Positions 24,527 through 52,850 of a stretch of DNA of 64,000 nucleotides are shown here, one piece after another. The notes beneath the pieces were generated by a model, which had not been told where the DNA came from, did no database searches, and worked only from the letters and a program-made list of their open reading frames with translations. The DNA comes from an uncultured Chthonomonadales bacterium (GTDB lineage: Bacteria > Armatimonadota > Chthonomonadetes > Chthonomonadales > CAJBBX01): NCBI GenBank assembly GCA_938005745.1, contig CALLMM010000001.1, positions 1-64,000 of the forward strand, read 5' to 3'. The first letter of the stretch is position 1, and every line of letters starts with the position of its first letter. Both the position numbers and the translations under genes were made by a program.

Positions 24527-25417
24527 TCACACCTCCCGCTTTCCGAAGAACGGCTCGATCACATCGTAGCGATAGACCGGACCGTCCTTGCAGACGAACC
24601 AGGGACCGAACTGACAGTGACCGCAGATGCCGACGGCGCACTTCATGTTGCGCTCCATCGAGAGGTAGACGTTCTGCGCATCCACGCCGCGTTTCTGCAG
24701 TTCGAGCACGGCGAAGCGCATCATCACCTCCGGTCCGCAGATGAAGGCGACGGTGCTGAGCGGGTCGAACGGGGCGCGGGAGATCAGCGAGGTGACCACC
24801 CCGACGTTGCCGCGCCAGCGGTCGCTGGCGCGGTCCACCGTCACATAGACCTCCAGATCGAAGTGCGAGCGCCACTTCTCCACCTCGCGGCGGTAGAGGA
24901 TATCGTTGGGGCTGCGGGTTCCGTAGAGCAGTACGATCTTGCCGTACCGCTGCCGCTCATGCAGCATGTTGTAGAGGGCGGTCCGCAGCGGAGCCAGTCC
25001 GATGCCTCCCGCCACAATCACCACATCATTGCCTGCCGCCTCTTCGATTGGCCACGCGCTGCCGAACGGTCCGCGCACGCCCAGCACGTCGCCGGGTTTG
25101 AGGCGGCGCATGGCGCGGGTTACCACGCCGACGGCACGGGTGGTGTGCACCAGCGTATCGGGACGCGAGGGATCGCCGCAGATGGAGATGGGAATCTCCC
25201 CCACGCCCAGCACATAGAGCATATTGAACTGTCCCGGCTTGAAACGAAACGGCTTCGCGCCGTCGGCGGACTGAAGCTCTACCGTAAAGGTATCCGACGT
25301 CTCCTGACGCACGCGATTCACCACATAGGGACGCGGAAGCATGGGGGCTGCCTCCTGCGGCTCGAGGACGGGCGGCTCCCACGCCGCCGCAGCGTTCTCC
25401 AGCAGAGGAGTCGTCAT
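24527..25417 (-). CDS. hyhG: Group 3b hydrogenase FAD/NAD(P)-binding (gamma) subunit
   Basis: This 296-residue protein belongs to the ferredoxin-NADP reductase superfamily as found in sulfhydrogenase gamma and dihydroorotate dehydrogenase PyrK. It has an FAD domain ([21 protein letters not shown] near residue 57), a NAD(P) domain beginning [20 protein letters not shown] near residue 130, and a C-terminal 2Fe-2S ligand set [12 protein letters not shown] with a later Cys in FVCKDG. It exchanges electrons between NADP(H) and the iron-sulfur chain. It overlaps the preceding cNMP-fold gene by four bases. Confidence 0.92.
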
Positions 25418-25884
25418 TTTGGCTTCCTCTCCTTATGCCCGTACATGTCGAGAAGCTGCAGGCGGGTCGCCTGAAGACGCTCCTCCAGCACCAGTGTGAA
25501 ACGCTTCAGCAGCTCATAGCCCATCGCCGGATTATCGTCGCACTTTTTGCGCAGACAGGTTCCATCCAGCGCGAGCGCGCGGGTTACCTCTAGGGCGCGG
25601 GCGTCGAATCGCCAGCGATAAGGCGGAACCAGCCACGACCATCCCAGCACATCGTTTTCGCTGATGGTCTGGATGACGATCGGACCCTGCTCCATGTGAA
25701 TCTCCAGCGCGACCCTGCCGTGTCGAATCAGATAGAAGCGATCCGCCTCCTCGCCTTCGCGGAAGATCACCTTCCCCGCCTCAAAGACGACGTTGGTCGC
25801 GCATCCGGCAATGACCTGCACATACTCGGAAGCCAGCCCCTGCGTAAAGGGGTGATCCAGCAGAACGCGCTCAAGCGTTTTCAT
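25414..25884 (-). CDS. Stand-alone cyclic-nucleotide-binding-fold protein, hydrogenase-associated (copy 1)
   Basis: The 156-residue protein is one cNMP-binding beta-barrel ([24 protein letters not shown]) with a short C-terminal helix and no helix-turn-helix, so it is not a Crp/Fnr regulator. The phosphate-binding cassette is unusual: [18 protein letters not shown] near residue 80 takes the place of the usual FGEIALL...PRSATV, so the ribose-binding Glu is absent. It sits between hyhB and hyhG, overlapping both, so it should be made in step with the hydrogenase. A sensor or regulatory subunit role is inferred. Copy 2 lies at 27058. Confidence 0.8.
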
Positions 25885-27034
25885 GGGTTTTCTCCTTTGA
25901 TCCCCGAACCTTTCCCTGGAAAGCGCGGACCTCCTCGGTCAGATCAATGGCGACCGGACACCAGGTGATGCACCTCCCGCACCCCACGCACCCGGACACC
26001 CCGAACTGGTCGTGCCACGTGGCGAGCTTATGGGTCAGCCACTGGCGGTAGCGCGCCGAGGGAGAGTAGCGCACGCTGCCGCCCGTGATGTAGGAGAAGT
26101 CCATCATAAAACAGGAATCCCAGCGCCGGCGTCGTTCAGCGTTTCTTCCCCCTAGGTCCACGCTGTCCTCCACCGTCATACAGAAGCAGGTCGGGCAGAC
26201 CATAGTGCAGTTGCCGCAGGTCAGGCAGCGCGCTCCGACCTCCTCCCAGTGAGGATGTTCATAACTGCGATAGAGAAGCTCTTTCAAGCCTTCGACGTGC
26301 ATTGTCCGGCTCTGCTGCCGGGCGGTCTGCCGGCTGATCTCCCACGCCTGCGCGATCTGCGCGTCGGTCGCGGGCGCGTGCGGAATCTCCTGCAGCAGGT
26401 CCGCGCCCCGCTCGGAGCCGGTTTCAACCAGAAAGTGGTGCGTCCGCCTGTCGATCACCTCCGTCAGAGCCAGATCGTAGCCCGACTCCGCGCGGGGACC
26501 GGTTCCCATCGAGGCGCAGAAGCAGGTTCCGCTCGCCTGCGCGCACTGAACGACAATGATCAGGAGGCTTGCGCGCCGCTCGGCGTAGACCGGGTCTATG
26601 TAGCCTTTGCCCAGAAAGACCCGATCCTGCACCGCGATCGCCTCCAGTTCGCACGGGCGCACGCCCAGAAACGCCATCTTCGGCGCCTCCTGCGAATCCA
26701 GCATAAACTGCAGATTGCCATTCTCCCGCCGCGCGCGCCACAGCCGCAGATTGGGCGGGTTCAGAAACTGCTTCCAGGAGCGCGGTCCGACGCCGTAACC
26801 GAAATAAGCCTCGTCCTCGCGCCGTTTCAGCCGGTAGACGCCTCCCTCCTGTTCGTCTGTCCAGCCGACGGGCAGTTCCGACACCGAACGTATCTCCTCC
26901 AGAACGACGGCGTTGTCGGAGAGCGTCGGTCCGATCACCTGATAGCGCCGCGCATGCAGCGCCTCCAGCAGACGCGGGAGATCCTCTGCCTGCAGGATGG
27001 CGGTCTCCTGCGTGTGCGAAGCGGATGTGCTCAT
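25871..27034 (-). CDS. hyhB: Group 3b hydrogenase 4Fe-4S (beta) subunit
   Basis: This 387-residue protein resembles the sulfhydrogenase beta subunit. Its C-terminal region carries two 4Fe-4S motifs, CLTCGNCTMVCPTCFC near residue 270 and CVGCGRCITWCPVAIDL near residue 355. The N-terminal 220 residues form the conserved beta-subunit domain, with FLGVRPCELEAIAVQDRVFL, and Cys residues within QCAQASGTCFCASMGTGP that may bind another cluster. It relays electrons between HyhG and HyhS. It overlaps the downstream cNMP-fold gene by 14 bases and follows copy 2 of that family by 23. Confidence 0.9.
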   Translation of the reverse strand: MSTSASHTQETAILQAEDLPRLLEALHARRYQVIGPTLSDNAVVLEEIRSVSELPVGWTDEQEGGVYRLKRREDEAYFGYGVGPRSWKQFLNPPNLRLWRARRENGNLQFMLDSQEAPKMAFLGVRPCELEAIAVQDRVFLGKGYIDPVYAERRASLLIIVVQCAQASGTCFCASMGTGPRAESGYDLALTEVIDRRTHHFLVETGSERGADLLQEIPHAPATDAQIAQAWEISRQTARQQSRTMHVEGLKELLYRSYEHPHWEEVGARCLTCGNCTMVCPTCFCMTVEDSVDLGGRNAERRRRWDSCFMMDFSYITGGSVRYSPSARYRQWLTHKLATWHDQFGVSGCVGCGRCITWCPVAIDLTEEVRAFQGKVRGSKEKTHENA

Positions 27035-27057
27035 GATGGTATTCCCTTCGCCTGCCG

Positions 27058-27519
27058 TCAGCGTCTGACGGCGTAACTGTCGAGCAGCTGCCTGCGGGTT
27101 GCAAGAAGACGCTGATCCATCACCAGCGCGAATCTCTGCAGCAGCTCTGCGCTCAGGCTCTGCTCCTGGTTCAGAAGCTCGCGCAGCCGGACGGCATCCA
27201 CCTGTATCGCCTCGGTGCGCTCCTGCGCCCGGGCGTCAAACTTCCAGTGGTAGGGCGGAACCAGCCACGACCATCCCATCACCTCTCCGGGTCCGATCGT
27301 CTGCACCGTAATCGGTCCCGGCTCCAGATAGAATATCTCCAGCGCAACAGTTCCGGTCAGGACCAGGTAGAAGGCGTTCGCCTCCTGCCCCTCGCGAAAG
27401 ATCATCTCGCGGGGCTGAAACTGAATATGCTTTGAGCAGTCCCTGATGGTCTGGAGGTGCTCTGCAGACAGTCCCTGTGTGAAGGGATGTTGAACAAGAA
27501 GGCTCTCCAACGGCTCCAT
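27058..27519 (-). CDS. Stand-alone cyclic-nucleotide-binding-fold protein, hydrogenase-associated (copy 2)
   Basis: This 153-residue protein is a close paralogue of the one at 25414. Both open with a HPFTQGL segment and share IFREGQEANAFYL and the unusual cassette [19 protein letters not shown], and both end in a basic helix LLATRRQLLDS. No DNA-binding domain is present. The pair brackets hyhB and probably arose by local duplication; they may form a heterodimer (inference). It is the first gene of the hyh block, 92 bases after the GNAT gene. Confidence 0.8.
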   Translation of the reverse strand: MEPLESLLVQHPFTQGLSAEHLQTIRDCSKHIQFQPREMIFREGQEANAFYLVLTGTVALEIFYLEPGPITVQTIGPGEVMGWSWLVPPYHWKFDARAQERTEAIQVDAVRLRELLNQEQSLSAELLQRFALVMDQRLLATRRQLLDSYAVRR

Positions 27520-35096: not shown

Positions 35097-35131
35097 AAAA
35101 AGACCGGAGGCGCACCGCCCCCGGTCTTTTC
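35097..35131. terminator. Bidirectional terminator between the LOG gene and the DCGDCP gene
   Basis: AAAAAGACCGG pairs with CCGGTCTTTT across a GGCGCACCGCC loop, giving a stem of about ten pairs with A-rich and T-rich flanks on both sides. It separates the convergent LOG gene (ending 35052) and the small cysteine-motif gene (ending 35152). Confidence 0.7.
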
Positions 35132-35151: not shown

Positions 35152-35511
35152 CTATTTGGTCGAGCAGTCGCCGGACTTCTTCGCATCCGGAGAGACCGCC
35201 AGCGTGCCGGCATCTTTGGTCATGGGGCAGTCGCCGCAGTCCTTCGGCTTGGCTTTGACCGAGGCGTTGTTGACCTCGCCCGTCATCGGGCAGTCGCCGC
35301 AGTCCGCCTTCTTCTCGCTCACCGCGGCGGGCTGAAGCGAAGCCGCGCTCTTGGAAGGACAGTCGCCGCAGTCCCAGGACTTCTCGCTGACCGCAGCCGG
35401 TCCGACGGGAGCCGCGCCTCTGTTGTTAAGGCTGGCAAAGACGGCGATGCCAAAGATCAGAACAATGGCGGAAAGAATGCCGACACGAAACAGAGCATTC
35501 GGTTTCTTCAT
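35152..35511 (-). CDS. Small membrane-anchored protein with DCGDCP cysteine repeats
   Basis: This 119-residue protein starts at ATG 35511 behind a perfect AGGAGG; the open frame upstream lacks a site. Residues 8-29 (FRVGILSAIVLIFGIAVFASL) form a single membrane anchor. The rest is a hydrophilic linker holding three DCGDCP motifs (Cys at 48/51, 71/74 and 92/95) and a decayed GDC at 114-116, spaced 21-23 residues apart, each followed by a Ser/Lys/Ala-rich stretch. Four CxxC-like units suggest metal binding or thiol chemistry at the outer face of the membrane (inference). The neighbouring 55-residue gene at 35614 is a shorter relative. I do not recognise a named family. Confidence 0.7.
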   Translation of the reverse strand: MKKPNALFRVGILSAIVLIFGIAVFASLNNRGAAPVGPAAVSEKSWDCGDCPSKSAASLQPAAVSEKKADCGDCPMTGEVNNASVKAKPKDCGDCPMTKDAGTLAVSPDAKKSGDCSTK

Positions 35512-35613
35512 GTGGAAAGGTTCCTCCTGTTCCGGATGCGCTCCGGGAAAGCGTTGTGTTTTTCTCTTTACGGATGAAATCGGTAGAATTGCTTCCAGAA
35601 CTCTCAACGCCCG

Positions 35614-35781
35614 TCAGTGACCGGGACAGTCGGTGCAGTCATACGACTTGACGGCATAGGGACCATCCGAAGATTTGGCGGCTACCCGGGTGTTGCCGAT
35701 GCTGGCGGCAAGCGCCACGCCTATCACCGCCAGGATCGCCGCCACCACGCCCAGGCGATACAGACCATAGACCCGCTTCAT
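35614..35781 (-). CDS. Very small membrane-anchored protein ending in a DCTDCP motif
   Basis: A 55-codon frame runs from ATG 35781 (behind GAGAGGAGTATC) to the TGA at 35614-35616. Residues 8-27 are a membrane helix (YRLGVVAAILAVIGVALAAS). The C terminus is SYDCTDCPGH, matching the SWDCGDCP unit of the 119-residue neighbour; the N-termini also match (MK, L-R-G, AI, G-A, AS, N). It lies 102 bases upstream of that gene on the same strand, so the two are probably paralogues, with the larger one grown by repeat duplication. It is too short for routine gene calling. Confidence 0.65.
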   Translation of the reverse strand: MKRVYGLYRLGVVAAILAVIGVALAASIGNTRVAAKSSDGPYAVKSYDCTDCPGH

Positions 35782-35828
35782 GATACTCCTCTCGAAATTT
35801 AGAACGGCTAAATGTCCTCTTCACCTAC

Positions 35829-35904: not shown

Positions 35905-36039
35905 AGATGGCTTCGGTCGCTCACGCTCCCGCGCAATAACGATCTGGTGGGCAATACCGTCGCAGTTACGCGCGACACACCCCCATTTGTCATTGCGAGC
36001 GAAGCGAAGCAATCTTTCACCTCCCTCGCATGACAGAGG
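35905..36039. repeat. Copy of dispersed palindromic repeat with internal conserved core
   Basis: The left arm (AGATGGCTTCGGTCGCTCAC from 35905) and right arm (TGTCATTGCGAGCG to GAAGCAATCT ending 36015) are inverted. Between them is a core whose reverse complement has GTGTGTCGCGCGTAACTG, also found in the copies near 48200 and 52775. A partial extra unit follows to 36039. This element accounts for most of the 320-base gap 35782-36101; no gene is seen there. Confidence 0.75.
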
Positions 36040-48164: not shown

Positions 48165-48362
48165 AGATTGCTCGCTGTGCTCGCAATGACAATGCGAGGA
48201 CGTGTCGCGCGTGACTGCCGCGGGCATGCGACCCGAATTGTCCTTGCGAGGGAGGTGGCAGGTGACCCTCCTCCTGTCCTTGCGAGGGAGTGCAGCCGAC
48301 CGAAGCAATCTCGTCGTTTTCCGGAACGTGGAAGATTGCTTCGCAGCGCTCGCAATGACAGG
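48165..48362. repeat. Copies of dispersed palindromic repeat before the oxidase/oxidoreductase genes
   Basis: This stretch has AGATTGCTCGCTGTGCTCGC, an internal GTGTCGCGCGTGACTGCC core, two TGTCCTTGCGAGGGAG half-units, GAAGCAATCT and a final AGATTGCTTCGCAGCGCTC segment ending CAATGACAG. It holds about one and a half elements in opposite orientations. It explains most of the 451-base gap 47968-48418, in which I see no gene. Confidence 0.75.
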
Positions 48363-52738: not shown

Positions 52739-52850
52739 AATTGCTTCGCTGCACTCGCAATGACAGACTGGGGGCGTGTTGCGCGTGACAGGAACGGTCG
52801 AGCGTCCCGGTCTGTCATTGCGAGGGAGGCGGAGCAGACTGAAGCAATCT
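52739..52850. repeat. Clean full-length copy of the dispersed palindromic repeat
   Basis: The left arm (ATTGCTTCGCTGCACTCGCA, then ATGACA) and the right arm (TGTCATTGCGAG to GAAGCAATCT) are inverted around a core with GTGTTGCGCGTGACAGG. It gives the simplest picture of the whole element, about 110 bases with outer AGATTGCTTC/GAAGCAATCT ends. It lies in the leader after the perfect promoter. Outside the promoter and repeat, the 406-base gap 52562-52967 shows no gene. Confidence 0.8.

Follow-up and report, generated by a model that had tools for sequence, protein, structure and literature searches.

Known bacterial metallothioneins are cytosolic and fall into Pfam families of their own. YHS domains have been proposed to bind transition metals, and the one in an adenylyl cyclase of Mycobacterium phlei is a probable copper sensor (PMC4626032). 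Some substrates of MNIO enzymes carry 17-residue repeats with EGKCG motifs (PMC12452194). The buffering of metals in the cell envelope by small disordered cysteine proteins is poorly catalogued, since the genes are short and repetitive and are missed by profile libraries. We analyzed two short adjacent genes in a 64,000-nucleotide stretch of DNA (the window) from an uncultured Chthonomonadales bacterium. Neither product, P0001 or P0002, matched a family in Pfam, NCBIfam, PHROGs, PADLOC or the PDB sequences, in line with the initial annotation, which had recognized no known family. The YHS profile PF04945, the curated metallothionein models of Pfam and NCBIfam, and DUF2282 and the other curated RiPP precursor models of these two libraries likewise gave no match in either protein. 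P0001 and P0002 are probably metal- or thiol-holding proteins of the envelope, of a kind not described before.

Both open reading frames lie on the negative strand. P0002 (35614..35781) is 168 nt long, starts with ATG and encodes 55 amino acids, with a hydrophobic helix or signal sequence at the N-terminus and, within the C-terminal end SYDCTDCPGH, one DCTDCP motif (located by motif search at 35624..35640). P0001 (35152..35511) encodes 119 amino acids, in which a hydrophobic N-terminal helix is followed by three DCGDCP units and a fourth, decayed one, SGDCST. Shine-Dalgarno-like sites were read from the upstream sequence of both genes on the same strand, GAGAGGAG at 35782..35795 for P0002 and AGGAGG at 35512..35530 for P0001. 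For each gene the codon score is positive in only one of the six frames, its own; the same is true of the synonymous component, which at 0.15 and 0.11 for the two ORFs is lower than in conserved genes of the window (0.2-0.36). Downstream of P0001 on the negative strand (35098..35130) is a hairpin that resembles a terminator and leads into a T-rich tract. It was found by folding against shuffles (-29 kcal/mol for the region, z -3.3) and is unlisted in a simple terminator scan. Codon frame, Shine-Dalgarno sites, motif count, paralogy and selection on the relatives agree that both are real genes. The claim that the shorter one is beyond the reach of ordinary gene callers is doubtful, because P0002 is small but well formed in its start codon, length, close upstream GAGAGGAG and sole positive frame.

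The pattern GAYTGYNNNGAYTGYCC has four matches in the window, as opposed to 0.04 expected from shuffles, and none elsewhere in the 4.26-Mb genome; all four fall at the P0001/P0002 locus. Translation confirmed one DCTDCP in P0002 and three DCGDCP in P0001, where the cysteine pairs begin at residues 48, 71 and 92, giving spacings of 23 and 21 residues within the 21-23 originally reported. In the DNA, the three units of P0001 are 61-nt direct repeats of family D1 on the negative strand: DCGDCPSK with its upstream linker (35357..35417), DCGDCPMT (35288..35348) and again DCGDCPMT (35225..35285). The outer copies, 63 and 69 nt from the middle unit, share 62% and 74% identity with it, respectively, which supports the proposed growth by repeat duplication. 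A 20-nt piece encoding KKSGDC (35164..35183, negative strand, direct repeat family D3) is 85% identical to 35227-35246 and stands in a 63-nt register with the units at 35227 and 35290. The kept register and identity establish it as a real decayed fourth copy, in which the first cysteine and the proline have both become serine. One locus displays the unit side by side at one copy and at three copies plus a decayed one.

P0001 and P0002 score 35.6 bits against each other (phmmer). When the N-terminal 30 residues were shuffled, with the tail also shuffled around the kept motifs, the score fell to 8.6 ± 3.0 (maximum, 19); it stayed near 30 bits when the tail alone was shuffled and the motifs were kept. 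The common sequence consists mostly of the hydrophobic head and one motif. The two genes are marked as paralogues by their N-terminal halves, where matching residues had been noticed, and a single gene duplication is the simplest reading of their sequences.

In the AlphaFold2 model of P0001, residues 5-32 are predicted to form a helix, and residues 37-119 have a pLDDT below 50 (mean pLDDT, 46); the tail beyond the helix is predicted to be disordered. Hydropathy over 19 residues from position 10 reaches maxima of 2.66 and 2.68 in the two proteins. Membrane anchoring had been proposed, but both proteins contain candidate signal-peptidase sites (VFA/SLN and ALA/ASI), and the signals of the relatives look cleavable. 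The hydrophobic stretch is stronger in the window pair than in these relatives, so the pair may nevertheless be anchored. Both window proteins have the N-terminal signal or anchor of exported DCxxCP-repeat proteins. Tandem units in a disordered tail are found in P0001, with its three units; P0002, with a single unit, belongs to this group by paralogy only.

We searched the phylum for relatives. P0001 as a query gave weak matches in 17 other genomes, most of them unconvincing when read. An alignment-based search of 291 genomes returned mainly the window pair and two groups of relatives; a Spy-like protein and two weak matches of short length made up the rest. The first group belongs to genus g23 of family f6 and contains the segments MHKR...WVSANPQ, SCCAHEG, ECPYM, KKDCSDCPEM and CPFM; its member in genome G203 likewise has a decayed unit, DASGGS. 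The second group, from genus g43 of family f14, contains MKKFLAPAIAAVALVGLAIAASS and then three DCGSCP/DCGGCP units. As a DNA pattern, two close DCxxCP units occurred in 9 of the 291 genomes and in none of the 291 in a reversed control. Relatives from three clades differ by dN of 0.06-0.33 and dS of 0.23-1.67, with ratios of about 0.1-0.35, and cysteines are kept in the closer pairs at 6/6, 12/12 and 10/10 positions. Judged by sequence, the relatives in the two other families are exported proteins of the same layout, under purifying selection and with almost invariant cysteines.

P0001 scores 38.9 bits against the G203 protein, clearly above chance given a maximum of 18.9 in a motif-keeping shuffle control, and marginally above such shuffles against those of G060 and G170. 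Homology of the window pair with the f6 relatives is fairly likely; for the other relatives, common ancestry and independent gain of the DCxxCP unit are equally possible. The initial annotation had held that a lack of homologues elsewhere, together with a lack of translation, would point to chance coding, and the relatives in other families and in 9 of 291 genomes remove the first of these grounds.

Other searches outlined the distribution further. Orthologues of a vanX-like neighbour of the pair occur in 10 further genomes of the family to which the window belongs, with no DCxDCP gene within flanks of roughly 1.5 kb. When a collection of genome contigs was scanned for tandem DCxDCP, the matches were all unrelated repeats, either secreted or of low complexity; the scan used exact codons with GAC first and would miss relatives of the DCGSCP type. 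A plasmid search with an f14 relative found no match. Single-motif DNA matches within the order were discarded as chance-like and in poor frames. A looser CxxCP pattern yielded mostly noise but brought up a protein of genome G008 described below. Two loci with weak false matches to P0001, L057 (G092:C18) and L063 (G093:C68), have regularly spaced units (LYLIGVCPQSPT and VGDCGQTPIRYN, respectively) and resemble a translated array of DNA repeats, which may be a CRISPR.

Within the family of the window itself, exported proteins with CxxCP segments between a signal peptide and a C-terminal YHS-type domain are encoded in six genomes, from genera g7, g8 and g4; one representative per genus was scanned, and each scored above the Pfam cut-off. 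Methionine follows CP within two residues at 11 of 31 sites, as opposed to 1.5 expected, and none of 5,000 shuffles was as high, the sequences being partly related. Both results favour the suggestion that the motif is metal- or thiol-active. Against the YHS-fused proteins, P0001 does not outscore motif-keeping shuffles, and the metal link is therefore one of association. A triple-YHS exported protein without CxxCP repeats is encoded in the same genome as the window (L134, G000 contig C56, 6583-7266; E 3e-24).

Relatives display DCxxCP-type units on other exported metal-linked scaffolds as well. In genome G257, DCDNCP repeats are joined to a ferredoxin domain (Fer4_13, above cut-off), and Pfam confirms a cysteine-rich protein of G035 as a member of Metal_resist. 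The G257 locus L135 (G257:C391, 5799-6536), like L105, encodes an N-terminal hydrophobic helix, four 15-residue GCDDCDGDCDNCPKA-type repeats and a [4Fe-4S] ferredoxin domain; the gene for the ferredoxin-fused protein adjoins one that looks, by eye, like a TauE/SafE-type permease. L162 (G008:C248) and L180 (G005:C50) encode exported Gly/Met-rich helical proteins with no Pfam family above cut-off. The G008 protein has CxxCP units near its C-terminus, its relatives in G004, G007, G003 and G010 lack them, and the units are confined to one genus. By eye it resembles ZraP/Spy; no Pfam model confirms this.

The surroundings of the pair include a long region (13736-34326) of apparent genes for [NiFe] hydrogenase and its hyp maturation, with HypC and HypD identified by Pfam and the rest by eye, and within it two CRP-like genes (25414-27519). 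A dispersed repeat, GTCATTGCGAGCGAAGCGAAGCAATC, occurs at 35989-36014, 48334-48359 and 52739-52764 (three copies with up to three mismatches; 0 expected), one copy sitting between the vanX-like gene and P0002. We take this element to occur in several unrelated phyla. Among the carriers of DCxxCP repeats that were examined, there was no common neighbour partner, and neither a metal gene nor a redox gene was evident beside the repeat gene; neighbours recognized by eye included metK, miaB, a TetR-type regulator and cinA-like genes.

We give about an even chance to the reading that P0001 and P0002 are disordered, envelope-facing thiolate proteins that buffer or carry a soft transition metal in the manner of metallothioneins. 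An N-terminal Sec signal or signal-anchor would export or anchor each protein, and the disordered Lys/Ala/Ser-rich tail with its spaced D-C-x-D-C-P clusters would face the cell envelope. There, the cysteine pairs may bind Cu(I) or Zn(II), in some cases joined by Met or Asp as further ligands, and the tail would work as a buffer or carrier whose capacity varies with repeat number. The envelope is oxidising, and counting against a metal role is that the cysteine pairs could simply be disulfides. One alternative is a thiol-disulfide buffer or redox relay in the envelope, whose D-C-x-x-C-P pairs would switch between the dithiol and disulfide states by exchanging electrons with Dsb-type or other carriers and would bind no metal. 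The CxxC spacing, the predicted envelope location and the ferredoxin fusion of G257 would suit such a relay; the disordered tail, in which no thioredoxin-like fold is predicted, and the lack of an evident redox gene beside the carriers do not, and the methionine enrichment and YHS fusions point to metal instead. We consider it unlikely. Even less likely is a structural or adhesive envelope peptide with neither metal nor redox role, whose cysteine pairs serve as cross-links of the protein with itself or with the wall. Such a peptide would fit the disordered low-complexity tail, and cysteine-rich repeats are also found in unrelated secreted repeat proteins, but the proteins are short, similar motifs are fused to YHS domains, and methionine is enriched after CP.

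The layout of the pair, small and signal-bearing with repetitive cysteine motifs, also resembles that described for MNIO substrates, and the proteins could be RiPP precursors, for example of a copper-chelating bufferin whose repeated cysteine cores are modified before export. This reading was rejected because the enzyme is missing from the window's genome, which is 94% complete and in which the MNIO family PF05114 was not found. Among 11 carrier genomes that were searched, only 2 contained PF05114, away from the repeat gene. With no modifying enzyme evident beside the pair and no match to a curated precursor model, in a comparison that left the Buf_EGKCG and Buf_6/12Cys profiles outside, we regard a RiPP precursor as very improbable. 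A role as an accessory of [NiFe] hydrogenase maturation, such as a nickel or iron carrier, is suggested by hypC, hypD and hypE (34326-31924), which share the strand of the pair and begin some 0.8 kb downstream of it. An oppositely oriented LOG-type gene and the terminator-like hairpin intervene, however, and this candidate was dismissed because the pair forms a separate transcription unit. The carriers in other families have unrelated neighbours, and HypAB and HypCD act in the cytoplasm, so that such a role appears extremely improbable. Chance coding of both ORFs would agree with the finding that, elsewhere in the window's family, the vanX-like gene has no close homologue of the pair beside it. 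It was rejected on the count and confinement of the motif, the frame-specific codon use and purifying selection in the relatives, to which the Shine-Dalgarno sites and paralogy add, and we assign it next to no probability.

If the soft-metal reading holds and metal binding is confirmed, the relation of repeat number to metal tolerance would be directly testable in one small family. We put forward more tentatively the possibility that the pair belongs to a new, phylum-wide class of exported, intrinsically disordered, metallothionein-like proteins. Their capacity would evolve by gain and loss of D-C-x-x-C-P units, and the same unit would also be carried by YHS, Spy/ZraP-like and ferredoxin metal proteins of the envelope.

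Four described systems offer a comparison. Bufferins and other MNIO-modified copper RiPPs are likewise signal-bearing small cysteine proteins linked to copper (PMC12452194), but no MNIO gene was detected in the window's genome and the pair has no DUF2282 match. The periplasmic proteins of the Spy/ZraP/CpxP type (Metal_resist, PF13801) include the cysteine-rich protein of G035, and CxxCP units are present on the helical protein that G008 exports; the window pair lacks such a helical domain, and the G008 protein is below every Pfam cut-off. The window pair is also without the YHS domain of the exported YHS proteins (PF04945, TRASH-related), and similarity beyond the motif is not significant, yet in the family of the window such proteins have CxxCP repeats at the N-terminus, and the common theme is soft-metal association. 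Finally, whereas the window proteins bear an export or anchor sequence and match no metallothionein family of Pfam, they resemble bacterial metallothioneins in their small size, their many spaced cysteines and their proposed buffering of soft metals.
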